DNA from: a virus | Reading direction: 5' to 3' (one strand) | Length of the DNA: 23,074 nucleotides | IMG/VR virus record: IMGVR_UViG_3300030419_007307 | Coordinates: 1-23,074 of that record | Shown here: piece after piece, positions 4,756 through 22,456 of the stretch | Numbering within the stretch: the first letter of the stretch is position 1 | Layout: every line of letters starts with the position of its first letter | Position numbers and translations under genes: made by a program | The notes under the pieces: generated by a model | What the model was told of the DNA's origin: nothing | What the model saw: only the letters and a program-made list of their open reading frames with translations | Database searches by the model: none

Positions 4756-5886
4756 TTAACCTAATGTTCTGGTGCCTGTGTAGATCTCTTGGTGACTGAC
4801 TCCGCTAAGGAAAACTCCATCAGCGATATCTTCAGGACCACCAATTTGAGCAGTAAAGGTAAGGTCTACGGTTTTGTTGGCTCCGATGCTGGAACTCCAG
4901 CTTTCACTTTCAACCAATGCCCCTTTGAAGTCCCAAACCATTCCAGTTTTGTTATCAGAAGTTTTCAGCGTAATAGACACGTTCCTTTCTGATTCTTCCA
5001 GCTTGTCAGCCAAGTTGCGAGCATCAACTTCATTCAAAATAGCGCTGACATTCATCGTGGTAACAACTGGGAAGTCAACAGTTCTTGCATATGCGAACTT
5101 GCTTCCAAGACGATCCAGAGGAGTCCTAGAAAGCGGGATCGAGATAGTAGCACTCTGAACATGAATGCTGTCATCACCGCTAATATCACTTATGACATCA
5201 TCTCTAAAGTTGTCAATGTTAAGTGTAATATCTCCTGGGCGAAGAGCTGTAATTGAGCCGCTGAAAATGCTAGATGTGATTCCGCTTGTCGGGAGAGGAA
5301 GGGTGACATTCGTAGAGAATGCTTCGGTTCCATCTTGCTGGTTAACAGCAGGAGTTTTAATTGCATTACCCGCAGAACTGCGGACGTTAGATCCTTCCAT
5401 GCTTACGCTAGCAGTGGGCAGAGAACCGACAGAAAGATCAATGGAGTAGTCGCTGATGTAGCAATTTCCTACTCCAATAATTTTATCGGTAGCCGCATAT
5501 GCGTCTCCAGCATTCAAGTCCTCACCTTCTGGAGAGGTCACAATGTAGACGTTCTGGCCTGATCCTGCTGTCAGGTGACCAGAAGCAAAGTTTCCTTGAC
5601 CCAGAGCAGGGTTGCCAGTGGCAACAAAAAAGTTAAGAACCCTTTCATTAAATCCATCAGTCAAGTAATAAGAAAAGTCTAGGTTGACTGTCGGTGGTTC
5701 AAGAACTAACGAGTCGATACGAGCAAGCTGTCCATATTGGTTAACGTCTTGACGGTTAATAGTATAGCTGTAATTAGCACTTTGCACCCTGCGTAACTGT
5801 TCAGTTTTCGTAAAACCCGTAATAGAGGCATGTTCCGCAACGAAAAGCCCCTCTGATTGATAAATTACTCTGTTTCTGCTGGCCAT
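4756..5886 (-). CDS. major tail tube protein
   Basis: A 376-residue beta-rich protein. Three blocks match the products of 17401-18207 and 19177-20271. These are NYSYTINRQDVNQYGQL (38-54, only in the longer homologue), GNCYISDYSIDLSVGSLP (140-157), and a block at about 242-273 with an SIPLSRTP element and a GSKFAYARTV element. Tube subunits share this kind of beta-sandwich with distal tail proteins. Of the three, only this gene uses the preferred codons of the capsid gene (for example CGC and CTG), which points to the high-copy tube. It has the best ribosome-binding site of its block (AAAGGAAAG, complement of 5898-5906). It is last in the minus-strand operon, just before the shared terminator. 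Tube function is inferred from fold pattern, copy-number signature and neighbours. Confidence 0.7.
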   Translation of the reverse strand: MASRNRVIYQSEGLFVAEHASITGFTKTEQLRRVQSANYSYTINRQDVNQYGQLARIDSLVLEPPTVNLDFSYYLTDGFNERVLNFFVATGNPALGQGNFASGHLTAGSGQNVYIVTSPEGEDLNAGDAYAATDKIIGVGNCYISDYSIDLSVGSLPTASVSMEGSNVRSSAGNAIKTPAVNQQDGTEAFSTNVTLPLPTSGITSSIFSGSITALRPGDITLNIDNFRDDVISDISGDDSIHVQSATISIPLSRTPLDRLGSKFAYARTVDFPVVTTMNVSAILNEVDARNLADKLEESERNVSITLKTSDNKTGMVWDFKGALVESESWSSSIGANKTVDLTFTAQIGGPEDIADGVFLSGVSHQEIYTGTRTLG

Positions 5887-5897
5887 GATAAAAGATT

Positions 5898-5906
5898 CTT
5901 TCCTTT
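5898..5906 (-). promoter_or_regulatory. ribosome-binding site of the tail tube gene
   Basis: On the minus strand this reads AAAGGAAAG, eleven bases before the ATG at 5886. Other genes in the block rely on overlaps. A separate strong site here fits a high-copy product. Confidence 0.55.
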
Positions 5907-5935
5907 GTTTACAGTTTTATTATTAAAATATGAAA

Positions 5936-6784
5936 TTACTCAAAGCGATACCTGTTTTTTATCAAGTCAAAATCAATAAAGCCTATGTAAAGGTTGTTTG
6001 CTAAATTTTTCCTGCTGCCATCACTAAGTTTAGAGACTTTTACTTTATCGACAACAAATTGCTGCTCGGTATCGTATGGTTCTTTGGCTCCTGTGTAGTT
6101 ATATTCGTTGTTTTTTAGATCTCCAAGCTCTGTTATTGGGTATCCGCTCATGGGGATCGGTGTAAAAACTTCGTTCACAGAATCCATGAAAATAGACAAA
6201 ACACCATCAAGTTGATAGGTGTCTTCAGCTAAAACTACCGCGTTAGCGTGAACGCATGTGGTTTCCATACCTCCGAAAGCAAAGGGCTTGTTTTCACTTA
6301 CAGAAGTAGAGACAAATATTGCTGGAACAACATCATCATAAGGGGGGATATAGGTATCTGGCCCCGAAGGAAGACGCGAGTTAATCATATACTTATTTTC
6401 TATAATTAAATCGTCCTCTGTGTCATTTGTAAGATAAACATTAAAATCTTTTACTGCAAATTCCCCTGTTATGGTAGATCCAGTTACATCTCCTGAAACC
6501 AAGGCTCTTCCATTATCAAAATCCAAAACAATGCCGTCAGAGCGGCCTGAAAAGCTTGCGTCAATAAAAACACCAGTGGGTATAGTGGCTCCTGTTATAG
6601 AAGAGTCTGTCACCCACTGTTTGTATGGACTGCCGTAAGCCTTATATGTTGAGTCAAGATGGGGGTCATCGTAATAAAAAAACGTCCCCGTCTTATTGGA
6701 AAAAGCCTCCCCTTTTTTCAGTAGGAAATTATCGAACCACAAGAAAAAAGAAGTGGTTATTTTATGTTGAAACTGTTCCTTCAT
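5936..6784 (-). CDS. minor virion protein of the neck/tail operon, function unknown
   Basis: A 282-residue soluble protein. The segment GSPYKQWVTDSSITGATIPT (51-70) and the following GVFID and SGDVTG elements form a beta-strand-rich domain resembling virion proteins I have seen in environmental phages. It has no membrane segment and no enzyme motif. Its ATG overlaps the upstream stop by four bases (ATGA), so it is translated with the gp10-like gene, and it precedes the tail tube gene. Tail terminators often sit in this slot, but the protein is larger than the usual 130-200 residues, so I do not assign that role. Confidence 0.5.
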   Translation of the reverse strand: MKEQFQHKITTSFFLWFDNFLLKKGEAFSNKTGTFFYYDDPHLDSTYKAYGSPYKQWVTDSSITGATIPTGVFIDASFSGRSDGIVLDFDNGRALVSGDVTGSTITGEFAVKDFNVYLTNDTEDDLIIENKYMINSRLPSGPDTYIPPYDDVVPAIFVSTSVSENKPFAFGGMETTCVHANAVVLAEDTYQLDGVLSIFMDSVNEVFTPIPMSGYPITELGDLKNNEYNYTGAKEPYDTEQQFVVDKVKVSKLSDGSRKNLANNLYIGFIDFDLIKNRYRFE

Positions 6785-7368
6785 TTTAGTTCTTCAAACT
6801 TTTTTTTGTATTTTTTAAGGAATGCTGAAATATAAGGGGTGTTTTGAAATTTTCCACCTCTTACTTTAGTTCTTGTTTGTATAGCGGCACCTGATCTTCC
6901 TTTGTTTTTTCGTAGCAAGTGACCTAAGCCAGAGAGACCTCTTTCTATGCCTTCAGCCCAACTTCTTGCGGTCGCCCAAGGTAATGGGGTTACAGCGAAA
7001 ATTTGTTCAGGCTCTGGTAAGGTAACCTTAAAGTTTACACCTAAACCTTTACCAGATCCTTTAATATCTGAGTCATATTGCAAAACAACACTCTCCAATA
7101 GTGCTAAAATGGGAGCGATAGGATCATCTCCCTGATCAAATCCAATAAAAGCAAATAGGTTGCTTACGCCTCCCAAAGTCCCGCTAATATTGCTGCCGCT
7201 GGGACCGCTTTGTATTTCTAAAGTTATAGGGTGAGCCAGAAAATCAGCGATCATTTTTGATTTAATTTCTTTAAATCTTTTTCTGGTCTCTCTTTGTAAG
7301 TCTTTTCTGCTTAAACGAGGCACTTGTCGCTGCAAAGCTGCGATAACATCTGGCTCTAGAGATGGCAT
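6781..7368 (-). CDS. HK97 gp10-like head-tail joining or tail-completion protein
   Basis: A 195-residue basic protein with an N-terminal helix rich in Arg and Lys (about 20-40), a central beta region, and a C-terminal half with PLPWATARSWAEGIERGL followed by a very basic linker. The tail ends in a lysine-rich helix. Size, basic charge and position between the neck gene (7368-7835) and the gene before the tube are typical of gp10-like proteins, which act at the head-tail junction. It shares TAATG with the upstream stop and ATGA with the downstream gene, so the three genes look translationally coupled. The family call is by resemblance and context. Confidence 0.5.
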   Translation of the reverse strand: MPSLEPDVIAALQRQVPRLSRKDLQRETRKRFKEIKSKMIADFLAHPITLEIQSGPSGSNISGTLGGVSNLFAFIGFDQGDDPIAPILALLESVVLQYDSDIKGSGKGLGVNFKVTLPEPEQIFAVTPLPWATARSWAEGIERGLSGLGHLLRKNKGRSGAAIQTRTKVRGGKFQNTPYISAFLKKYKKKFEELK

Positions 7369-7835
7369 TATTCAGTAGGGGTAAGAGTAAAGGTATAGAA
7401 TTGGTTTGATGTAAAGCCTCTGGGCGATCCGTCACTTTCTATTATAAATTTATTTCCATCAAACTCTACCCTGCGAGCTTCACTAAGATAATCATATGCA
7501 GCTTCTTCTACTACGATTGTGACTGTCCCATCGGAAACAACAGCTTTGTTTTGTGTTCCTGCCTGTTGTGCTGCGCCATCGTCTGTGAGATACGCCTCGT
7601 CCATATCGTCATAATAAATTCTAGCTTGAAATTCTTGTGATATCTCTGTGTATTCAACAGGACTATTAGATCCTGTATTAGTTCTGCGGTAAAGAGAGTT
7701 CCAAGAATTAGTAGAAGCTATTAGAGTTTTTTTCGCATTTTTATAAACAGTTATAGTTCGGGCGAAAGTGGTGTGCAAAGTCCCCATAAGGTCTCTGACT
7801 TTGTTTATTTGATCTTGTGATAGAAACCCTGCCAT
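7368..7835 (-). CDS. probable head-closure (stopper-type) protein
   Basis: A 155-residue protein that is first in the minus-strand neck/tail operon. The start, INKVRDLMGTLHTTFARTIT, followed by VYKNAKK and a beta-rich second half (YLSEARRVEFDGNKFIIE), resembles the small beta-barrel closure proteins beneath the portal adaptor. The end FYTFTLTPTE is a typical beta edge. The likely start codon has little ribosome-binding sequence. Its upstream region is shared with the divergent gene at 7881. Stopper is the best guess from order (adaptor, stopper, completion, tube), not from a certain motif. Confidence 0.5.
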   Translation of the reverse strand: MAGFLSQDQINKVRDLMGTLHTTFARTITVYKNAKKTLIASTNSWNSLYRRTNTGSNSPVEYTEISQEFQARIYYDDMDEAYLTDDGAAQQAGTQNKAVVSDGTVTIVVEEAAYDYLSEARRVEFDGNKFIIESDGSPRGFTSNQFYTFTLTPTE

Positions 7836-9948: not shown

Positions 9949-12900
9949 ATGCCATTAAGAATACCAGCAACAGTTACAGGATTACAAGCTAGCATTGAGG
10001 CTCAAGCTAAGAAAGCTGGACGAAATCTAAAAATAAATCTTGGAACCAGTGCCAAAAGTATTGAGGGCTTATCTCAACCCTTGGGTCGTATTACAGGTAA
10101 GGCTGATCAGTTTACCAAGTCTATGGAAGCCGCCAACGCAAGGGTGTTGGCTTTTGGCGCTTCTGTGGGTGTATTATCAGCCGTAACTCAAGGATTCAAA
10201 GAGTTAGTAACCACTACCATCGAAGTTGAAAAACAGATGGCTAGCATTAATGCCATCTTGGGACAGACCACCTCACAGCTAGACGCTTTTAAGAAAACAA
10301 TTTTTGATGTAGCGAAAAACACTGAGCAATCTTTTACCACCGTTTCTGAAGCTGCATTAGAGTTAAGCCGCCAAGGTCTTTCGGCTGAAGAGGTTGTCAG
10401 GAGGCTTAATGACGCGATGATACTTTCTAGGCTTTCTGGTCAGGGAGCAGCAGAAGCCGTGGCTGGCTTGACGGCTGCTATTAACTCTTTTGGTAAAGGG
10501 ACTGTAAGTAGCACAGAGGTTGTCAACAAGTTTTCACAAGCCGCTAAAAATGCGGCTGTATCCGAAAGAGATTTAGCAGAAGCTATTAAAAGAGCTGGAT
10601 CTGTTGCTGATATTGCAGGGGTAAGTTTTGACGAACTTGTAGGTGTTGTTAGTGCTGTTCAGCAAAAAACTGCGCGAGGTGGTGCTGTTATTGGTAACTC
10701 GTTTAAAACTATTTTTACTAGAATTCAAAGCATAGACAAGTTAAAAACACTACAAAACCTTGGCGCTCAAGTAACAGACGCGGAAGGAAACATATTAAGT
10801 GCTACTAGATTAATACAAAATTTAGCTATAGCTATAAAAGATCTCCCAGAAGCGAGACAGCTTCAAATAGCTGAAAATTTAGTAGGCAAATTCCAAGTGG
10901 CCCCGTTTGTAGCTATCTTACAAGATTATAACTCTGAAGCATCAACAGCTATAAGATTAACAGAAATTTCTCAAAAAGCATCAACAGAAGCTTATGAGCG
11001 TAATGCCGCTCTCAACAAAACCCTATCTGCTGCAATTAATGAAGCTACAGTTAATTTAAGAGAACTAGCTAATACTTTAGGAGAAATTGGAGTAACCGAT
11101 AGCCTTAAGAACATTTTAGGATTTTTTAATTCTCTAGTAGGAAACATAAAAACACTTCTTGAGGGTGAGGGTATCGGGAGTGATTTTGCTAGAGGGATAG
11201 TAAAAGGTATAGGCAACATCCTTAGCGGACCTGGGTTAGCTATCTTTGGCGCTATTATAGCTAAACTTACTATTGACCTTGCAAGATTTGGGGTGGGTTC
11301 CCTGCAAACCTTCTTTGGTCTTAACAAAGCGGCCAAAGAACAGGCTACCCTTCAAGGGCAGATAGCTTCTACTCTTTTGGGCAATAAGAGTATTCAGTCG
11401 CAAATAATGGCTATAGAAAATAGCACATTAAGCATCGAGCAAAAACGTGCCGCTCAAACAAAGTTTTTTACTACAGCGCTAAACGAGCAATTGCGAATAA
11501 TGACGCAAATGCAAGGCATCGCTGCAAGAGTTGCTCCTGGGGTTGCTAGAGGAACAAGAGGGGCTAGAGGAAGGGCTGCTGGTGGATATATTCCTAATTT
11601 CAATGCTGTAAGGGGTTATGGGACAGAAATGTCTGATATATCCAGAGGAGTAGGTGGTGCTCCTGCATCAGCGCGTCCTGTGACTATTCCTAACTTCAAT
11701 TTTGGTGGCGGTCAGCGCGGGACAATGGTGGCGAACACTAGTGAATTTATTGTTCCTAATTTTGCGGGTGGGGGATCTGCTATATTTAATCAAGACATGG
11801 TTTCCTCTATGGGGTTGCCAGCTGGAGCTAGAAGAGTAAGTGCTGCGGGAGGATTTATACCTAACTTTGTCGATACTGATCCTGTCTCTACTGTAGGGAA
11901 GACAAAGGGTATGACTCTTGCCCAAGCTGTAGCTGCATTTAGAGCGGGAAGTCTTAATCGTAGCGCTCTCACTTCTGGATTTGGTAAGGAGGCTGTTGAT
12001 GCTAGGTTAGGAGCGGTTAGCGTTGCTGGTAGACCTGTCGCAGCAGCGGGGTCATCAGGAATCTTAAGAATTCCTGGGCGAAGATATGGTGTCGCAGCTT
12101 TGTTTCCCAGTAAAAAAACAACCACTACCTCCACTAATTTCACGGGAGAGCAGACAAACCCAGGCATTATAGGATTACAGCAACGGGGCTTCACTGGCAT
12201 ATCGTTCTCAGGTGTCCAGATCTCTGATTTGCAGACTATGCAGAGGGGTATAAAGGGGGGGATGAAGGAGTCTGAAAACAGAAGAAAAATTGGTCGTTTA
12301 TTCGCTGAACCATTGGCTAGATATGGAGGTGAGATTATACCAGACGCTGGATTCCAAAATGACGAACTTACAGATATACAAGATAAAATAAAAAAACTTG
12401 GCAGAGGAAAAGGTGCTAAACTATTCAGCACGGCTGTCGAAGGGGGAATTTTTGAAGCCGCTGTAAGTCTTGTCACAAAAGGTGCTAGAGGTATTAGGCA
12501 ATTTAAAGATCACACGACTGAAAGGGAACCATTTGATTTCGAAGAAGGAGGAAGGGCAGATACAAAATTCAAAAGGGCATTTCGTTTTACTGATGATTTA
12601 GTCAGAGCTGATGCAAAAAGAACAGCTTCTAATTCGGCTGTCCAGACATTAATTTTTAAAGCTTTAAATGACCCTGCCGAACGCAAATATATTTTGGGGT
12701 TGGCTACTAGAAAGCAAAAGGGTAAAGGTAGAACAGGAGCTGGAGGATATATTCCAAATTTCAATGTTTCGCCCCTACAAGACGCTATAGCTAGAGAAAC
12801 AGGAGCTGGGCTTCCCGTTAACCAAGTTAGAATTAACCAAAGCCCCAAACTAAGAAACGCAGGAAACCCTATGGGTCTTGCTGTGACCAACACAAGGGAT

Positions 12901-15900
12901 GAGCCTACTGGGGCAATTCCTAATTTCAGAATAAGAGGTTTTGCTCCTTCAACACCAACATCTACGAAAGCTCGCGGACCAAGAGATGCAGCTGCGAGTA
13001 GCGAACTTTTAACTAAATTTATTGTTTTACAAACAGTTGTAGCTGGATTGAGTGGTGTGGTAGGTGAAACCACAAATCAATCTGAACTTTTCAATAAGTC
13101 TCTGAAGGCGATGAATATTGCCATGACAGCTTTCTTAGCTTCCTCCGCTTTTGGTGGTGCAGGTAGGCTTTTAGGAGGAGCAAGTAATTTGCTCACTGGG
13201 CAGGCTGGTGTTAATTTAGGAGCGAGGGCGGTAGAAAGATCCAGAGCGTTGGCAGAAAGAGCAGATCGATTGGAGCGAGCAGGAAATCGTTCTAGATTTA
13301 CAGGCCCAGGTTTTGTGGGGGGACCGCGCTCACGAAGGGGAAGAAGGCTTGTGAGGCAAGCGAATATGACGAGACTGGGGGGGAATATAACGAGTCGGGC
13401 AGGTAGGCTTGCGGGGTTTGCTTTAAGAGTAGCTGGTCCTGCGGGAGCGTTCACGGGAGCGCTCCTCGCTGTCTCTCATGCCGTAAATTACTTCTCAGGA
13501 AGAGCGGAGTTGGCAGGAGCCATGACTGAGCGCCTTGCAACTACAACTCAATTGGCGAATAAAGAGCTAGAAAATTTAAAAGTCCCACAATCTTTTAAAG
13601 ATTCATTAAGGGCGCAAGCCAAAAGCTCGGCTGCTCTTGCTGGTCAGTCGATTCAGGATGCAAGGTCTAAGGGCCTTCTTGGTTTTAACAGGTTAGGGGG
13701 AGCTTTTCGCGGAACAGACGATAAAGCGTTTCAACAAGCGATTACGGGAACGGTGAGCGCTGCAAGAACTGAAGGAATTAGTAATGCAGTTATTCAGGCG
13801 CAACTGAGACAGATGGACATAACTAGAGCCATAAGAGGTTCTGGTCTTGAGCAGGGCCTCAACGAATCTGATTCAGCGTTTGCTAGTAGAGCTTTAGCAA
13901 GTAAGGGCGGGAAAAAAGAACAATTTAATCCACAAGAAGAAGTTCAAGACTTTTTTGATGCACTTGAAAAGCAAATGGCTGACTTTTCAGCTCAAGAAAC
14001 TATAAATCGCTTAGTAGCAACCATAGACCCTAACTTACTAAAAGAGCTTAGGGCCGTGATGGAGCTTGAAGCTCGCGCAAGTAGGGGTGGTAGAGAACTT
14101 AGCGATGAAGAAAGAAGAAGGAGGGGTGCTCTTGATGAAAGACTAACAGAATTTGCTAGGGGGTCTGGTGTCCAAGGGTCAGACATAATAGCAAGAGAGG
14201 TTCTAACTCAAGGGTTTAGGGGATCAGTAACTAGGGGAGAAACCTCTCAACAGAGAATAGAGAGAATACAAGCAGAAACCGCCAAACTAAGACTAAAAAC
14301 AGAAATAGAAATTGCTAGAGTAAAGGCTGAAGAGATTACATCAGATGAGATACAATTAAGCAGAGGGCAAGCGCTGGGAACCCTTCGCGCAGAGGAGAAG
14401 ATCACGCTAGAAAAAAACATTGCTTTATCAAAAAATCGCAAAAAAGTCGATCTGGATATATCTAAAATCGCAGCACAAGAGATAGCTAATTTAAAAGCTT
14501 TAAACTTCGACAAAGAAAAGCAAGAGGCTCTCCAAAAACTTATAAGCAAACAGTCTTTATCTCAACTGGCTTCAGAAGAAGGAAGAAAAAACCTTATAAA
14601 AAACATTGTAGGCTTAGAAGAGAAAGGGGCGCTGGAGGCAAAGTTAATTTTAGATTTCTTTGAAGAGCAAGCTCAAGCTTTAATACAGAAAGGGAAGGCT
14701 CAAGAGGAAAATTTAAAGAAAGACTTTCAGTCCCGTGTAGAAAACGAAAAGGCTCTTGAAATCCAGCGTAAAAGAGTAAATCTATTACAAGTTGAAAATA
14801 AAAGTTTAGCTATTAGGCAAAATGCTGCCTTAGATATTCAGCGCGTAGCAGCAGATTTCGCCAGATCTAGTATTCAAAACAACCCCAATCTGACTAGCCT
14901 TGAGAGAAGTCAGGCTTTACTCGCTAACTTGCCACAACAACAGAATGTCGCAAGAGCAGAACTTCAAAATTCTGAAATTCAGAGACTTTTAAATGAAATA
15001 ATACAGGTAGAAAGCCGAGACCCCACTCAAAATTTCGAGGATTTAAGGGTTCAATTAAATAACATACTATCAGGTCGAACAAGTCGGGAAGCAGGAATTT
15101 CAGAAGTGAGAGCTTCTTTGGAGGAGAGTTTAGCTTTTGGAGAGAGGCTGGGAGCTAGTGAAGCTGACCAACAACCAATGAGACAGTTTCTACTATCCGT
15201 AGAGGCACTAGAAGCGGCTTTCGAGAAGCTAGGGCTTACATTAAACAAGGAGGAACAAGAGGCTAAGAACAGGGCAGATCCAGAAAATTTTACGAAATTT
15301 AATACGCTACTAAGAGGGCTTACTCAAGAATTAAATAGGGCGCAAGAGCAGCTTAGATTTGACGCTATCCGAGCTGGAGACGCATCAGGATTTGTTGGTA
15401 GCGCTAGGCAAATTAGAGAAAATCGACTTAGGTCATTAGCTGGAAATAATGTCTCCGCACAAATAGGAGTTACTCAACAATTTGCCCTTCAGGGTTTGCG
15501 CGACACTCAAAGAACTGGGGCAACTAGGGCTGAAAGACGACAGGCCGAAAGACAGTTACCATTTGTCGAAGAACAGTTCCGACTTCAACAAAAGTTAAAC
15601 GTATTATATGAAGATGCAGACAATAATTTAGACAAGATTAAAAAGGTCGAGGATGAAATATTAGACATAGAAAGAAAAAGACAAACAGTCAACGAGAAAA
15701 TAGGAGCTTTGATTGAAGATACATTTATTAAGAGCGCTGAAGATATCGAAAAACAATTAGGAAAATCACTTGTCGCAGATGGTGAGCGCTTCAAGAAGTC
15801 GGTAACAGATGGATTGGTAGATGCTATTATCCTCGGGCAAGATTTAGGGGACACCTTGAGACAGGCAGCTGCGGAATTCTTTAGTTCAAGAGCTAAATCT

Positions 15901-17397
15901 CAACTTGAAGCGGCATTTGATAGCATTTTGTCGGGATCACAAGGTGCTTTAGGTCCGATTCCTGAAAGGGGAGAAAGAGGAGGCTTGCTTAATGTTTTGG
16001 GGGGAGCTTTCAGGGGTCTTGGTGGTCTTCTTGGATTTAACTCTGGTGGACTTGTCACAGGAGGCTCGCGCAGAATGGATGACGTTCCTACTTTATTAAC
16101 AGGTGGGGAGTTTGTTATAAGAAGAAGTGCTGTGGAAAAATATGGCCCTGAGTTTCTTGAGGCTCTTAACAGGGGTGGTATTCAAACCATGCAAAGAGGT
16201 GGACTCTTTACCCCAGGAACTTTTGGACAAGGATCAATCACTGGATCTAGAAATCTTTTAGACTTTGCCACACAAAATCTTACGACTGGTCAACAGGACA
16301 GAATTGGAGGGGGTGCTGGATTTGGGTTCGCTTCATTAGAGCCACAGAGTGCTCGCCTTACTATGTTCGGTAGGAGAAACAGTCCGTTGTTCCAGCAAGA
16401 ACAAGACTCCAAGAGAGAGGCATTTGGACTCTTTACAAGACAATCTCAACTTGAGGAGCAATTAGCTGAACAAAGAAGGCAACAAAGGAGAGCATTTAGA
16501 AATTCTCTTATAACTTTTGTGGCTGCAACTGCTTTAGGTGAACTGACGCGACCACAGGGTGAGTCTGTGTCTACTGATGCTCAAACAGGGTTGGCAGATC
16601 AGAGGCAGTCTATAATGCTTGGTGGTGGAGGTATAGGAGGTGGTGGAGCTAGAGCAGGAGGTGGAGCTAGCACTGTTCTTACGCCTAGAGCTACAAGAAC
16701 TCCTACAACTCCTACAACTCCTACAGCTGTAACTCCAGCCCTAGATTTAACTGGCCAAGCTGGTTTAGATATTGCAGGTGGTGCAGCAAATAGGAGCGGT
16801 GGAGCGCTTAGAGCCGTTCTTAACTTGTTTAGAGGAGGAGGGGGCCAACAAGGAGGAGCGGGTCAAGGAATTATGCGAAGAGCAGCTAACGCTTTTGACG
16901 GCTTCGCGGCTCGTTTAATGGAAACCTCATTTTTTCTTCACGGTGTGGCAGATGGCAGAGAGACACCTCTCAACCTAGATAATCCTCTTTTTCCTCCTCG
17001 TTTACCTCAAGCTAGACCACAGGGCAGAGCAACTGGTGGGTATGTTTCTCCTTCTGCTGGTGTGGATAGCGTTCCCGCAATGTTGACTGGTGGAGAGTTT
17101 GTTATGAATGCTGGGGCGACTCAGAGAATTGGCCGTGGCAACCTAGCTGCCCTTAATGGAGGAAGCGGGGTAGGAGAAGGCAACGATGCTGTGGTTGCGA
17201 GACTGGATGAGCTTATTGCTGTATCTGGAGAAGGTGGAGACACAGTAATTAATATTACGGTTAATTCTGATGGCACTCAAACAACCGAAGGCGAAGGAGA
17301 CACAGACCAGCAGACTCTTGCTCTAAGGATTAGAGACGTTGTGAGACAAACTATTGATGAAGAAAAAAGACTTGGTGGATCATTAAGAAGGCAATAA
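9949..17397 (+). CDS. tail tape measure protein with an embedded nuclease-like segment
   Basis: A 2482-residue protein that sets tail length and is ejected ahead of the DNA. Residues about 60-390 are a TP901-type core (ANARVLAFGASVGVLSAV, FKTIFTRIQSI). Hydrophobic stretches lie at about 425-455, 1018-1040 and 1154-1180. Six IPNF or VPNF motifs lie at 545-551, 580-583, 602-605, 634-640, 932-938 and 990-993, several preceded by GGY or GGF. Between the fourth and fifth, E836, D863 and D888-A-K890 form a PD-(D/E)xK nuclease-like pattern. NTRDEPTG is at 981-988. Coiled coils fill about 1425-1680 and 1790-1930. Two GEFV modules lie at 2033-2056 and 2363-2386, flanking Gly-rich and Thr-Pro repeats. 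At about 0.15 nm per residue the ruler would give a tail near 370 nm, less if some parts are cargo. Confidence 0.93.
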   Translation: MPLRIPATVTGLQASIEAQAKKAGRNLKINLGTSAKSIEGLSQPLGRITGKADQFTKSMEAANARVLAFGASVGVLSAVTQGFKELVTTTIEVEKQMASINAILGQTTSQLDAFKKTIFDVAKNTEQSFTTVSEAALELSRQGLSAEEVVRRLNDAMILSRLSGQGAAEAVAGLTAAINSFGKGTVSSTEVVNKFSQAAKNAAVSERDLAEAIKRAGSVADIAGVSFDELVGVVSAVQQKTARGGAVIGNSFKTIFTRIQSIDKLKTLQNLGAQVTDAEGNILSATRLIQNLAIAIKDLPEARQLQIAENLVGKFQVAPFVAILQDYNSEASTAIRLTEISQKASTEAYERNAALNKTLSAAINEATVNLRELANTLGEIGVTDSLKNILGFFNSLVGNIKTLLEGEGIGSDFARGIVKGIGNILSGPGLAIFGAIIAKLTIDLARFGVGSLQTFFGLNKAAKEQATLQGQIASTLLGNKSIQSQIMAIENSTLSIEQKRAAQTKFFTTALNEQLRIMTQMQGIAARVAPGVARGTRGARGRAAGGYIPNFNAVRGYGTEMSDISRGVGGAPASARPVTIPNFNFGGGQRGTMVANTSEFIVPNFAGGGSAIFNQDMVSSMGLPAGARRVSAAGGFIPNFVDTDPVSTVGKTKGMTLAQAVAAFRAGSLNRSALTSGFGKEAVDARLGAVSVAGRPVAAAGSSGILRIPGRRYGVAALFPSKKTTTTSTNFTGEQTNPGIIGLQQRGFTGISFSGVQISDLQTMQRGIKGGMKESENRRKIGRLFAEPLARYGGEIIPDAGFQNDELTDIQDKIKKLGRGKGAKLFSTAVEGGIFEAAVSLVTKGARGIRQFKDHTTEREPFDFEEGGRADTKFKRAFRFTDDLVRADAKRTASNSAVQTLIFKALNDPAERKYILGLATRKQKGKGRTGAGGYIPNFNVSPLQDAIARETGAGLPVNQVRINQSPKLRNAGNPMGLAVTNTRDEPTGAIPNFRIRGFAPSTPTSTKARGPRDAAASSELLTKFIVLQTVVAGLSGVVGETTNQSELFNKSLKAMNIAMTAFLASSAFGGAGRLLGGASNLLTGQAGVNLGARAVERSRALAERADRLERAGNRSRFTGPGFVGGPRSRRGRRLVRQANMTRLGGNITSRAGRLAGFALRVAGPAGAFTGALLAVSHAVNYFSGRAELAGAMTERLATTTQLANKELENLKVPQSFKDSLRAQAKSSAALAGQSIQDARSKGLLGFNRLGGAFRGTDDKAFQQAITGTVSAARTEGISNAVIQAQLRQMDITRAIRGSGLEQGLNESDSAFASRALASKGGKKEQFNPQEEVQDFFDALEKQMADFSAQETINRLVATIDPNLLKELRAVMELEARASRGGRELSDEERRRRGALDERLTEFARGSGVQGSDIIAREVLTQGFRGSVTRGETSQQRIERIQAETAKLRLKTEIEIARVKAEEITSDEIQLSRGQALGTLRAEEKITLEKNIALSKNRKKVDLDISKIAAQEIANLKALNFDKEKQEALQKLISKQSLSQLASEEGRKNLIKNIVGLEEKGALEAKLILDFFEEQAQALIQKGKAQEENLKKDFQSRVENEKALEIQRKRVNLLQVENKSLAIRQNAALDIQRVAADFARSSIQNNPNLTSLERSQALLANLPQQQNVARAELQNSEIQRLLNEIIQVESRDPTQNFEDLRVQLNNILSGRTSREAGISEVRASLEESLAFGERLGASEADQQPMRQFLLSVEALEAAFEKLGLTLNKEEQEAKNRADPENFTKFNTLLRGLTQELNRAQEQLRFDAIRAGDASGFVGSARQIRENRLRSLAGNNVSAQIGVTQQFALQGLRDTQRTGATRAERRQAERQLPFVEEQFRLQQKLNVLYEDADNNLDKIKKVEDEILDIERKRQTVNEKIGALIEDTFIKSAEDIEKQLGKSLVADGERFKKSVTDGLVDAIILGQDLGDTLRQAAAEFFSSRAKSQLEAAFDSILSGSQGALGPIPERGERGGLLNVLGGAFRGLGGLLGFNSGGLVTGGSRRMDDVPTLLTGGEFVIRRSAVEKYGPEFLEALNRGGIQTMQRGGLFTPGTFGQGSITGSRNLLDFATQNLTTGQQDRIGGGAGFGFASLEPQSARLTMFGRRNSPLFQQEQDSKREAFGLFTRQSQLEEQLAEQRRQQRRAFRNSLITFVAATALGELTRPQGESVSTDAQTGLADQRQSIMLGGGGIGGGGARAGGGASTVLTPRATRTPTTPTTPTAVTPALDLTGQAGLDIAGGAANRSGGALRAVLNLFRGGGGQQGGAGQGIMRRAANAFDGFAARLMETSFFLHGVADGRETPLNLDNPLFPPRLPQARPQGRATGGYVSPSAGVDSVPAMLTGGEFVMNAGATQRIGRGNLAALNGGSGVGEGNDAVVARLDELIAVSGEGGDTVINITVNSDGTQTTEGEGDTDQQTLALRIRDVVRQTIDEEKRLGGSLRRQ
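16618..16728 (+). repeat. low-complexity Gly-rich and Thr-Pro repeats within the tape measure gene
   Basis: A glycine-rich run (residues about 2224-2244) carries two DNA copies of GGTGGAGCTAG, followed by three tandem copies of ACTCCTACA encoding Thr-Pro-Thr. It is probably a flexible linker between the two GEFV modules. Such runs change length easily by slippage. Confidence 0.6.
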
Positions 17398-20271: not shown

Positions 20272-20654
20272 TCATAGTCAATTTTAAGGTTTTTACTTTC
20301 GTATCCCTTTTCTTTGATTCTGTTTGGGTGTTCTGCCCCACCCCTTTCTTTGGCATAATTGTCGTAAAACTTTTCTTTTACTGGATCTAGCCCCCCTGCT
20401 TTTTCTGCTCTTTGTTTACTTAAATCAGCAGAAAGGTCCATCATGTCTCCAAGTGTGCCTTTTTTATTATAAGTAGCGTCTATATATTGCTGCTTATTAA
20501 ATGGATCAATTGAATTGTCAATGGAGGCGTTGGGCGAAAGAAATACCCTCTTCCACTCAACGCCATCCTCTGAATAGACATGTTTATCATTCATCCCTTG
20601 AAATACCTCTCGGTATTCTTCGTTTTCGGGGTGTTTGTAAACATAAATAGGCAT
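20268..20654 (-). CDS. FmdB-like small phage protein lacking zinc cysteines
   Basis: A 128-residue protein. MPIYVYKHPENEEYREVFQG resembles the start of FmdB-type zinc-ribbon proteins (MPIYEYxC), but the cysteines that bind zinc are absent throughout. The rest is hydrophilic, with WKRVFLSPNASID, DPFNKQQYIDATYNKKGTLG and a basic, helical C-terminus. I recall such Cys-free relatives in aquatic phages; their function is unknown to me. It starts in a TGATG overlap with the Hsp20 gene and is the last gene of this minus-strand operon. Whether it kept any FmdB role cannot be told. Confidence 0.55.
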   Translation of the reverse strand: MPIYVYKHPENEEYREVFQGMNDKHVYSEDGVEWKRVFLSPNASIDNSIDPFNKQQYIDATYNKKGTLGDMMDLSADLSKQRAEKAGGLDPVKEKFYDNYAKERGGAEHPNRIKEKGYESKNLKIDYD

Positions 20655-20971
20655 CAGGTTTTGATTGTTATTTCCCTGCCCTCCGATACGGCCCTTTTAG
20701 GCAGAGTCAACTTCAGTAGTCCGTTTTTTAATTCTGCGCTAACGTGCTCCTCTGAAACTGAATTGTTTAAATGTAGTTTAAACTTTTTAGACCTTTCTTT
20801 GTTTTTGGCATATACACTTAAAGTGTCGTCTAAGATTTTAATCTTTACGTCTTTCTTAGAAAATCCAGCCAGCTCAAGCTCTACCTTATATACATCACCA
20901 GAGTCTGAGATAATTTTTTTACTTTCTAAGCCGTCAGTAGTATTAAACAATGTATTGATTAAAGAATTCAT
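20654..20971 (-). CDS. hsp20: small heat shock protein (Hsp20 / alpha-crystallin)
   Basis: A 105-residue protein with an alpha-crystallin domain from about 24 to 95. YKVELELAGFSKKDVKIKI is the typical early strand pair, DDTLSVYAKNK follows, and SAELKNGLLKLTLPK carries the family's A-x-x-x-x-G-x-L-x-x-x-x-P signature. Small heat shock proteins hold unfolding proteins. Phage versions occur in T4-like cyanophages and may help virion assembly. The N-terminal arm is very short and the C-terminus ends in ITIKT, close to the I-x-I oligomerisation motif. It lies 37 bases after the glycosyltransferase stop and overlaps the next gene by one base. Confidence 0.9.
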   Translation of the reverse strand: MNSLINTLFNTTDGLESKKIISDSGDVYKVELELAGFSKKDVKIKILDDTLSVYAKNKERSKKFKLHLNNSVSEEHVSAELKNGLLKLTLPKRAVSEGREITIKT

Positions 20972-21008: not shown

Positions 21009-22091
21009 CTATAAAATACAGTCTAAAATTGAATTTAGTGTATTGGAGTAGGTCATTTCTTCTGCCAAATTTTGTCCCTCAGAGTTAATTTGTCCCGCTT
21101 TTGACTCAGCCGTTTCCATAGCGGCAACGACTTGTTCTTCTTGCCATGTGTAAAAGGTTCCTTTATTAAAAGGATTACTGGGTGAGAAGAAAACTCCGTC
21201 CTCGACAGGCATTTCTCCAGAGGGTTCTATGAGGATAGAATTATTTTCAGTAGCCCAGTCTTTGTGAGAGGTGCAGTTAAGAACTATGCTCCACTTTCCT
21301 AAGCAAGTAGAGTTAAATGCTGGTAAATTCCAACCTTCACCTCCAGATAGGCCAGTCAGATCAATATCAATTGAATTTAAAAGCTCATTAACCTCGCTAT
21401 TTTTATCCAAAGAGGGAAGGAAATTTATATTATTATAATGTTGTCCTCCAAGGGTCTCGTTTATGATACCCTTCATTTGCTCTGGTTGGAAAAACACATT
21501 ATTAACGCAGCATGAAAGCTGGTATTTGTTGTTATTTCCGTATTTCTTAAGCCAAGTTCTAATTATTTTTTGAGTATGCTTTCTGTTTTCGAACTTACCC
21601 ATCAAACCAAAATGAACCACATCTTTAAGGTATGTTTTTTCAGTTCTGAAAAAATCTTTATCAAACCCCAGAGGAACAAATCTTACATTCTCACAACCTT
21701 GTTCTTGAAAACACTCTACGGCATGACTAGAGCTAAAAAGTGTTTTATTTTGTGCCGCGCAAATTGATATCTCTTCTTCTGTTGGCTTATTGCATTCGTA
21801 AAAACTAAAAAGAAACTGATCTCTCGTCTTCCTGTTATCGCTCCCGTTTAGGTGCCATAACTTAAAACAAGGAACGTTTTCTTTTAGAAATTGCCACCTT
21901 TTTTTGACTGCTTGATCAATGTATTCTTTAATCTCCTGCGGGGGATCAAAGGCTGATAAGTCAATTTGATCTACAGGGTTGATCGGGAATATGGCTAGGT
22001 CAACATCACGACTGTGAAGCTCTCTGATAATGTTGTAAGAAACATTACCAAAGCTTAGTCGATTGAGGGGAACTTCTAAAAGTAATTTCAT
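21009..22091 (-). CDS. GT-B type glycosyltransferase
   Basis: A 360-residue soluble protein with a two-lobed GT-B look. The N-terminal lobe starts with a beta strand and a NVSYNIIRELHSRDVDLAIF helix-strand. The C-terminal lobe has GLMGKFENRKHTQKIIRTW (162-180), NINFLPSLDK (221-230), then GEGWNLPAFN (251-260), matching the nucleotide-sugar motif of family 4 enzymes (GEGFGLPxxE). The Glu that usually ends this motif is replaced by Asn260. The following SIVLNCTSHKDWATENN segment is conserved in position. It could modify phage DNA, virion proteins or host surface sugars; the neighbours (SSB, sigma-like factor) do not decide. The start overlaps the SSB stop (TAATG). Confidence 0.75.
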   Translation of the reverse strand: MKLLLEVPLNRLSFGNVSYNIIRELHSRDVDLAIFPINPVDQIDLSAFDPPQEIKEYIDQAVKKRWQFLKENVPCFKLWHLNGSDNRKTRDQFLFSFYECNKPTEEEISICAAQNKTLFSSSHAVECFQEQGCENVRFVPLGFDKDFFRTEKTYLKDVVHFGLMGKFENRKHTQKIIRTWLKKYGNNNKYQLSCCVNNVFFQPEQMKGIINETLGGQHYNNINFLPSLDKNSEVNELLNSIDIDLTGLSGGEGWNLPAFNSTCLGKWSIVLNCTSHKDWATENNSILIEPSGEMPVEDGVFFSPSNPFNKGTFYTWQEEQVVAAMETAESKAGQINSEGQNLAEEMTYSNTLNSILDCIL

Positions 22092-22456
22092 TAAAACGGC
22101 ACAAGGTCTTCAGATTCTTCAGCCTCTACTCCTTCTGAATCGGAATCAGACTTTTTGCCCGAACTCAAGAACTGTAGGTCTTTTCCTCTGATGTAGTATT
22201 TGCTAAAGCTCTTTCCGTCTTTTTCCCAAGAGGACATGCAGAGTTCGCCCTGAACCATAAACTCGCGACCCTTAGTTAAATACTTTTCTGCGATCTCTGC
22301 CGTCTTGTCCCAAAACTCTACATCAATAAAACACTTGGTTTTGGCATTGGCTGTAGAGATGCCCACCCTAAGGTTGGCTACTTTCTTTCCTCCGTTCGTC
22401 TCGCGGACTTCTGGATCTTTTACTAAATAAGCGGCTGCTGTGATTGAATTAAACAT
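22091..22456 (-). CDS. ssb: single-stranded DNA-binding protein
   Basis: A 121-residue SSB. Residues 1 to about 98 form the OB fold: NSITAAAYLVKDPEVRE at the start, VANLRVGIST, FIDVEFWDKTAEIAEKYLTK and GREFMVQGEL, all in the order seen in bacterial SSBs. A short Ser/Asp/Glu linker leads to the acidic tip EESEDLVPF, the phage equivalent of the DDIPF tail that recruits replication and repair proteins. Length is short compared with E. coli SSB (178), as is common in phages. The start lies eight bases inside the sigma-like gene's end, so the two are translated together. Confidence 0.93.
   Translation of the reverse strand: MFNSITAAAYLVKDPEVRETNGGKKVANLRVGISTANAKTKCFIDVEFWDKTAEIAEKYLTKGREFMVQGELCMSSWEKDGKSFSKYYIRGKDLQFLSSGKKSDSDSEGVEAEESEDLVPF

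Follow-up and report, generated by a model that had tools for sequence, protein, structure and literature searches.

A predicted PD-(D/E)xK-type nuclease domain in an exchangeable cassette slot of a phage tape measure protein

As judged from their sequences, otherwise near-identical tape measure proteins (TMPs) of related phages are shown to differ by the replacement of whole cassettes between short motifs, at a fixed slot of the protein. In the virus studied here this slot holds a segment of 292 residues, and alignment of its homologues strongly supports the assignment of a PD-(D/E)xK-type active site to it. Of these two results, the array of exchangeable cassettes matters more. Taken together, the segment is probably a nuclease domain of the PD-(D/E)xK type that is carried as an exchangeable TMP cassette and that would be ejected with the genome and cut in the host.

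The window (the whole stretch of DNA that was analysed, 23,074 nucleotides) is contained in a virus record of 43,038 bases. The ORF at 9949..17397 was identified as the TMP by its tape-measure domain, its large size and its position in a tail gene cluster; several PHROG tape-measure families match it as well. The coordinates of the features are given in Table 1. The exact DNA pattern for G(F/Y)IPNF is present in three copies in the 43-kb record, all within the TMP gene, and a control with the reversed pattern gave none. Both motifs that flank the cassette are preceded by an extra Gly, and thus read GGFIPNF upstream and GGYIPNF downstream. The preliminary description had placed a nuclease-like segment between two GG(F/Y)IPNF motifs and had named E836, D863, D888 and K890 as its active-site residues; the motifs and all four residues were found at these positions. 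Within the cassette a variable linker leads, followed by a conserved domain at about aa 702-925 (12052-12723). The module that follows the array (window 12763-12927) reads NPxGLxVxNxxDEPxG, and may serve in recognition or processing.

Table 1. Features of the TMP gene and of the cassette region. Positions are those of the window; residue numbers (aa) are those of the TMP.
Feature	Position	Strand	Basis or remark
Tape measure protein, carrier of the cassette	9949..17397	+	2,482 aa ORF
PhageMin_Tail domain, conserved TMP backbone	10297..10887 (aa 117-313)	+	Pfam E=2.3e-28
First GYIPNF motif	11584..11601 (aa 546-551)	+	Exact pattern
Short inter-motif module ...GTMVANTSEFIVPNFAGGGSAIFN..., kept in relatives	11602..11850 (aa 552-634)	+	Segment cluster 4
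GFIPNF motif, upstream cassette boundary	11851..11868 (aa 635-640)	+	Exact pattern
Nuclease-like cassette	11869..12744 (aa 641-932)	+	Flanked by GFIPNF and GYIPNF
E836 codon, predicted catalytic Glu, helix aa 828-844	12454..12456	+	58/58 sequences
D863 codon, PFDFEE, predicted metal-binding Asp	12535..12537	+	59/59; low-confidence loop in model
D888-A-K890 codons, predicted (D/E)xK motif, strand aa 886-892	12610..12618	+	Alignment
K904 codon, near-invariant Lys, helix after DxK	12658..12660	+	58/58 where aligned
GYIPNF motif, downstream cassette boundary	12745..12762 (aa 933-938)	+	Exact pattern
Conserved module 3' of the array, PLQDAIARETGAGLP...NPMGLAVTNTRDEPTGAIPNF	12763..12927 (aa 939-993)	+	408 related IMG/VR stretches

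Some other parts of the record were inspected as well. At window positions 4756-7835 four sizeable ORFs lie on the minus strand, within a structural cluster that is otherwise on the plus strand. A small ORF at 20654-20971 (minus strand) resembles, by eye, an HSP20-type heat-shock protein and is located near an SSB-like gene (22091-22456). In record bases 23039-43038 (L243), genes that by eye look like those of glycosyltransferases, NAD-sugar epimerases and nucleotidyltransferases follow one another and adjoin ribonucleotide reductase and RecA-like genes; such a run of sugar-type genes suggests that the phage carries a pathway for surface sugars or DNA sugars. No DNA methylase was obvious by eye in the 20 kb beyond the window, in a record that may itself be a fragment.

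Conservation of the named residues was assessed in 59 distinct homologous segments, taken from IMG/VR and from one metagenome-assembled bacterial contig. E836 was invariant in all 58 homologues that cover the position, D863 and K890 were each present in 59 of 59, and position 888 was D in 57 and E in 2. The invariance expected at E836, D863, D888 and K890 was therefore observed, the only exchange being that between D and E. In an alignment of 58 sequences (A7), whose members are as little as ~21% identical to the window, all four columns rank within the top 16 of 229; the corresponding probability for four random columns (P=1.6e-5) is only indicative, since related sequences are not independent. 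E831, which adjoins E836, was considered as a catalytic residue and rejected because it varies (37/43). With E831 variable and E836 invariant, conservation picks out the residues needed by a PD-(D/E)xK site. In eight close pairs dN/dS was 0.03-0.29, which shows that the domain is under purifying selection.

The same residues recur in more remote cassettes. In L157-L160 the motifs read GGLFE ... PFDF ... IEAK, that is, the ExK form. The inter-motif segments of related TMPs form 70 clusters, and these were compared with A7 by profile-profile alignment (hhalign). Five clusters stood out, with P values, each for a single comparison, of 4.6e-7 (cluster 2), 8.3e-7 (cluster 10), 3.3e-6 (cluster 36), 1.1e-5 (cluster 52) and 1.8e-4 (cluster 13); E, D and (D/E)xK were aligned in each of them, and the other clusters scored far lower. 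ExK also occurs in members of clusters 2 and 13, such as L230 (LEAK) and L195 (YEAK). Cluster 36 begins at the E-helix, which indicates that the upstream strands are absent from some members. The domain of the smallest cassette, L196:3055-3573, begins at this helix too. The ordered and invariant series E...D...(D/E)xK is thus found in the family of the window and in remote cassettes, and at the level of residues the cassette resembles a PD-(D/E)xK nuclease, of which it is a putative member by fold.

The structure of the segment was predicted twice with AlphaFold2, the second time from 58 sequences (pLDDT 86.6, pTM 0.79). In this second model E836 is within a helix (828-844, which is 132-148 of the model), D888-K890 lie in a strand (886-892) followed by two helices, and D863 is in a loop with a pLDDT <50 rather than in a modelled strand. 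Five strands precede the E-helix, which is not the textbook order for the PD-(D/E)xK fold. Searches of the PDB with Foldseek and VIA-align gave no nuclease-like structure for either model (E <= 0.001); the best VIA Z, 3.9, was on a helical stretch and is not meaningful. Viral structures gave no match for the first model. The helix-E, strand-D, strand-DxK layout suggested in the preliminary description is therefore retained for the helix of E836 and the strand of DxK, whereas D863 falls in the low-confidence loop and the PDB offers no counterpart. Overall, the cassette resembles the PD-(D/E)xK superfamily in having a Glu in a helix, an Asp and a (D/E)xK strand followed by a helix, with interchange of D and E. 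It differs in that its predicted strands precede the E-helix, that the D strand is not resolved in the model, and that neither sequence nor fold gives a significant match to characterised members.

Searches of sequence families agree with this last point. The segment and its homologues gave no match in Pfam, PHROGs, NCBIfam or PDB sequences, a result that is still compatible with a divergent PD-(D/E)xK member. With PADLOC, one of 58 members gave REase_II at E=0.03, which is no better than chance. Among isolated phages (INPHARED), tblastn of the segment found nothing, an array part of L191 likewise found nothing, and queries with whole TMPs gave matches only in the conserved N-terminal part, at 23-29% identity among the matches listed.

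Exchange of cassettes was analysed in 22 pairs of TMPs, each with at least 85% DNA identity (85-99.7%) upstream of the slot. Unrelated cassettes occupy the same slot of near-identical TMPs, and in 18 of the 22 pairs homology stops at most two codons from the end of the motif. L227 and L229, for instance, have 99.7% DNA identity as far as the final codon of a motif, then carry cassettes (342 and 272 aa) that are unrelated to each other, and return to 99.9% identity thereafter. The nuclease family of the window is among the swapped partners in L170/L171 (99.6%), L099/L219 (91.8%), L173/L176 and L055/L165 (86.4%); the nuclease is replaced by an unrelated cassette in L055/L165, and the number of cassettes differs in L170/L171. 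L227 and L229 also contain one cassette twice in tandem (TMP aa ~657-1000), as motif-bounded copies with 99.6% identical DNA, which is a recent in-frame duplication of a cassette. Assembly errors are unlikely to account for these observations because independent pairs stand in different contigs.

For a wider view of the arrays, the best 80 of the 408 IMG/VR stretches related by the post-array module were taken (L163-L242). In these related TMPs of uncultured phages, motifs of the G(F/Y/L)(I/V)PNF type bound segments of 60-480 aa, and the number of cassettes per array is 1-7 in the TMP ORFs of the 80 loci and of L055. One or more nuclease-like cassettes were recognised in 43 of the 64 arrays that have a complete N-terminal side, and about one-third of the sampled arrays had none; the stretches sampled are ranked by their similarity to a single phage, and the figures are no census. 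The only curated enzyme family matched by array cassettes is the GNAT acetyltransferases, in L191:4471-5004 (PF00583, E=7.8e-7, 29.8 bits versus a cutoff of 20.7). Most other cassettes gave no match in Pfam, and LPD domains were without a significant match among the cassettes.

Inspection by eye pointed to a P-loop-like cassette at L196:4783-5295, kinase-like ones at L055:4762-5409 and L175:5428-6009, ART-like ones at L215:4951-5484 and L222:4894-5550, and an HExxH-like one at L191:5023-5613. The kinase-, ART-, HAD- and HExxH-like clusters seen in this way received no support from Pfam and are treated as leads only.

The idea of a nuclease cargo in the TMP, put forward in the preliminary description, thus gains support in that the segment is one exchangeable cassette in a family of TMPs that bear cassettes; ejection, activity and target are what we infer. 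The cassette would be packed in the tail tube and, at infection, the TMP with its cassette would exit the tail together with the DNA or before it. It would then reach the host side of the envelope, fold, bind a divalent metal and cut nucleic acid. The TMP of lambda is located at the inner membrane next to ManYZ while the genome is injected (PMC13190303), which makes it plausible that a domain borne by a TMP can reach the host interior, and injection of large effector proteins along with the DNA has been proposed for phages (PMC5512222, PMC7824862). The likeliest targets would be the chromosome of the host, plasmids and prophages that reside there, or competing phages, and the attack would come at the very start of infection, ahead of all phage gene expression. 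In that case an arms race, fought with the defences of the host or with competitors, may lie behind the reshuffling of the cassettes. A nuclease that is made in the producing cell and rides with the phage genome would need a mechanism of control, and this need weighs against the reading; the phage's own DNA might escape through timing or confinement, by being modified, or because the nuclease is inactive inside the tube.

Several alternatives were weighed against the nuclease effector. Frequent replacement and the presence of other enzyme-like cassettes, GNAT among them, recall effectors of anti-defence or takeover, for example the polyvalent proteins (PMC5512222), and would also suit an anti-defence effector that keeps the nuclease-like active site but has a narrow substrate (defence-system nucleic acids, RNA, or DNA bound by a specific host complex) instead of being a general DNase. 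The analysis revealed no tie to any particular defence system, however, and we consider this version unlikely. An active nuclease could also work on the phage's own DNA, by trimming or opening the ends at ejection or by helping circularisation or recombination. The domain would meet this DNA first, and the conserved active site suits such work equally well as an attack on foreign DNA. Housekeeping of this kind predicts a fixed domain, yet the nuclease has been swapped (L055/L165), the cassette number varies (L170/L171) and a third of the sampled arrays lack a recognised nuclease-like cassette, which leaves a role in own-DNA processing rather unlikely. An effector turned against hosts or rivals accounts for the turnover of cassettes better than would a constant role in the DNA metabolism of the phage.

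It is quite improbable that the cassettes are shuffling structural spacers or membrane-interaction domains, in which E, D and DxK bind metal or hold the fold without catalysis. The unrecognised fold, the position of D863 in a low-confidence loop and the large share of cassettes that match no enzyme family would agree with this, but the residues that stay invariant are those of a catalytic centre, the D/E exchange occurs exactly at the (D/E)xK position, and a GNAT enzyme is not expected among structural spacers. Finally, the bare spacing pattern E-x(15-35)-D-x(10-30)-(D/E)xK starts at 25 positions of the TMP, including 6 inside the segment, is not significant and was dropped as an argument, but the chance motif that this frequency might suggest has a negligible probability and is refuted by the alignments, in which the named columns are invariant across 59 homologues and the same triad returns in remote cassettes.

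Some TMPs carry lysozyme or peptidase domains that act on peptidoglycan for entry. These share with the present TMP an embedded enzyme domain, and differ from it in that the domain here is nuclease-like and sits in an exchangeable slot. A second comparison is with the polyvalent proteins (Iyer et al. 2017, PMC5512222), large multidomain phage proteins that presumably enter the host with the DNA and whose several effector enzymes include GNAT and ART domains (PMC7824862). Several effector domains per protein may have their likeness in the cassette arrays of related TMPs, in which GNAT alone matched a curated enzyme family, but polyvalent proteins are separate proteins, whereas the cassettes lie inside the protein that sets tail length and are bounded by the fixed GG(F/Y)IPNF motif; PMC5512222 makes no mention of TMPs. 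Polymorphic toxins (Rhs, CdiA and relatives; Zhang et al. 2012, PMC3482391) similarly exchange variable effectors behind a conserved boundary of the carrier. In contrast to these, the cassettes are internal (aa 641-932 of 2482), form arrays of 1-7 and belong to a virion protein, and the variable C-terminal toxin domain of polymorphic toxins is not a feature of the cassette TMP, in which no arrangement of C-terminal toxin and immunity gene was noticed.

Domain shuffling in phage proteins was surveyed by Smug et al. 2023 (PMC10684548), in which TMPs appeared possibly mosaic by sequence and no recent mosaicism of TMPs could be confirmed. The pairs described here, in contrast, give a clean exchange of cassettes at 85-99.7% upstream DNA identity, and the recent exchange in TMPs fills the gap left by that survey. 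Among the open-access papers that were searched, none connects IPNF to tape measure proteins, and priority is not claimed.

The TMP is commonly viewed as a ruler and a conduit for DNA. If it carries exchangeable enzymes, the tail would also deliver proteins that act before phage gene expression, and a new place would be available in which to seek anti-defence and takeover factors. The large size and the mosaicism of some TMPs would be explained, and GG(F/Y)IPNF would be a sequence signature for finding new effector families. The chances are about even that the TMPs of many uncultured phages are reloadable carriers of effectors, with GG(F/Y)IPNF motifs as ports and a tail that delivers the cassettes with the genome, which would make them the equivalent, carried in the tail, of polymorphic toxins. 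These cassettes would comprise nucleases, acetyltransferases and possibly kinases, ADP-ribosyltransferases and peptidases, which are swapped, duplicated and strung into arrays.
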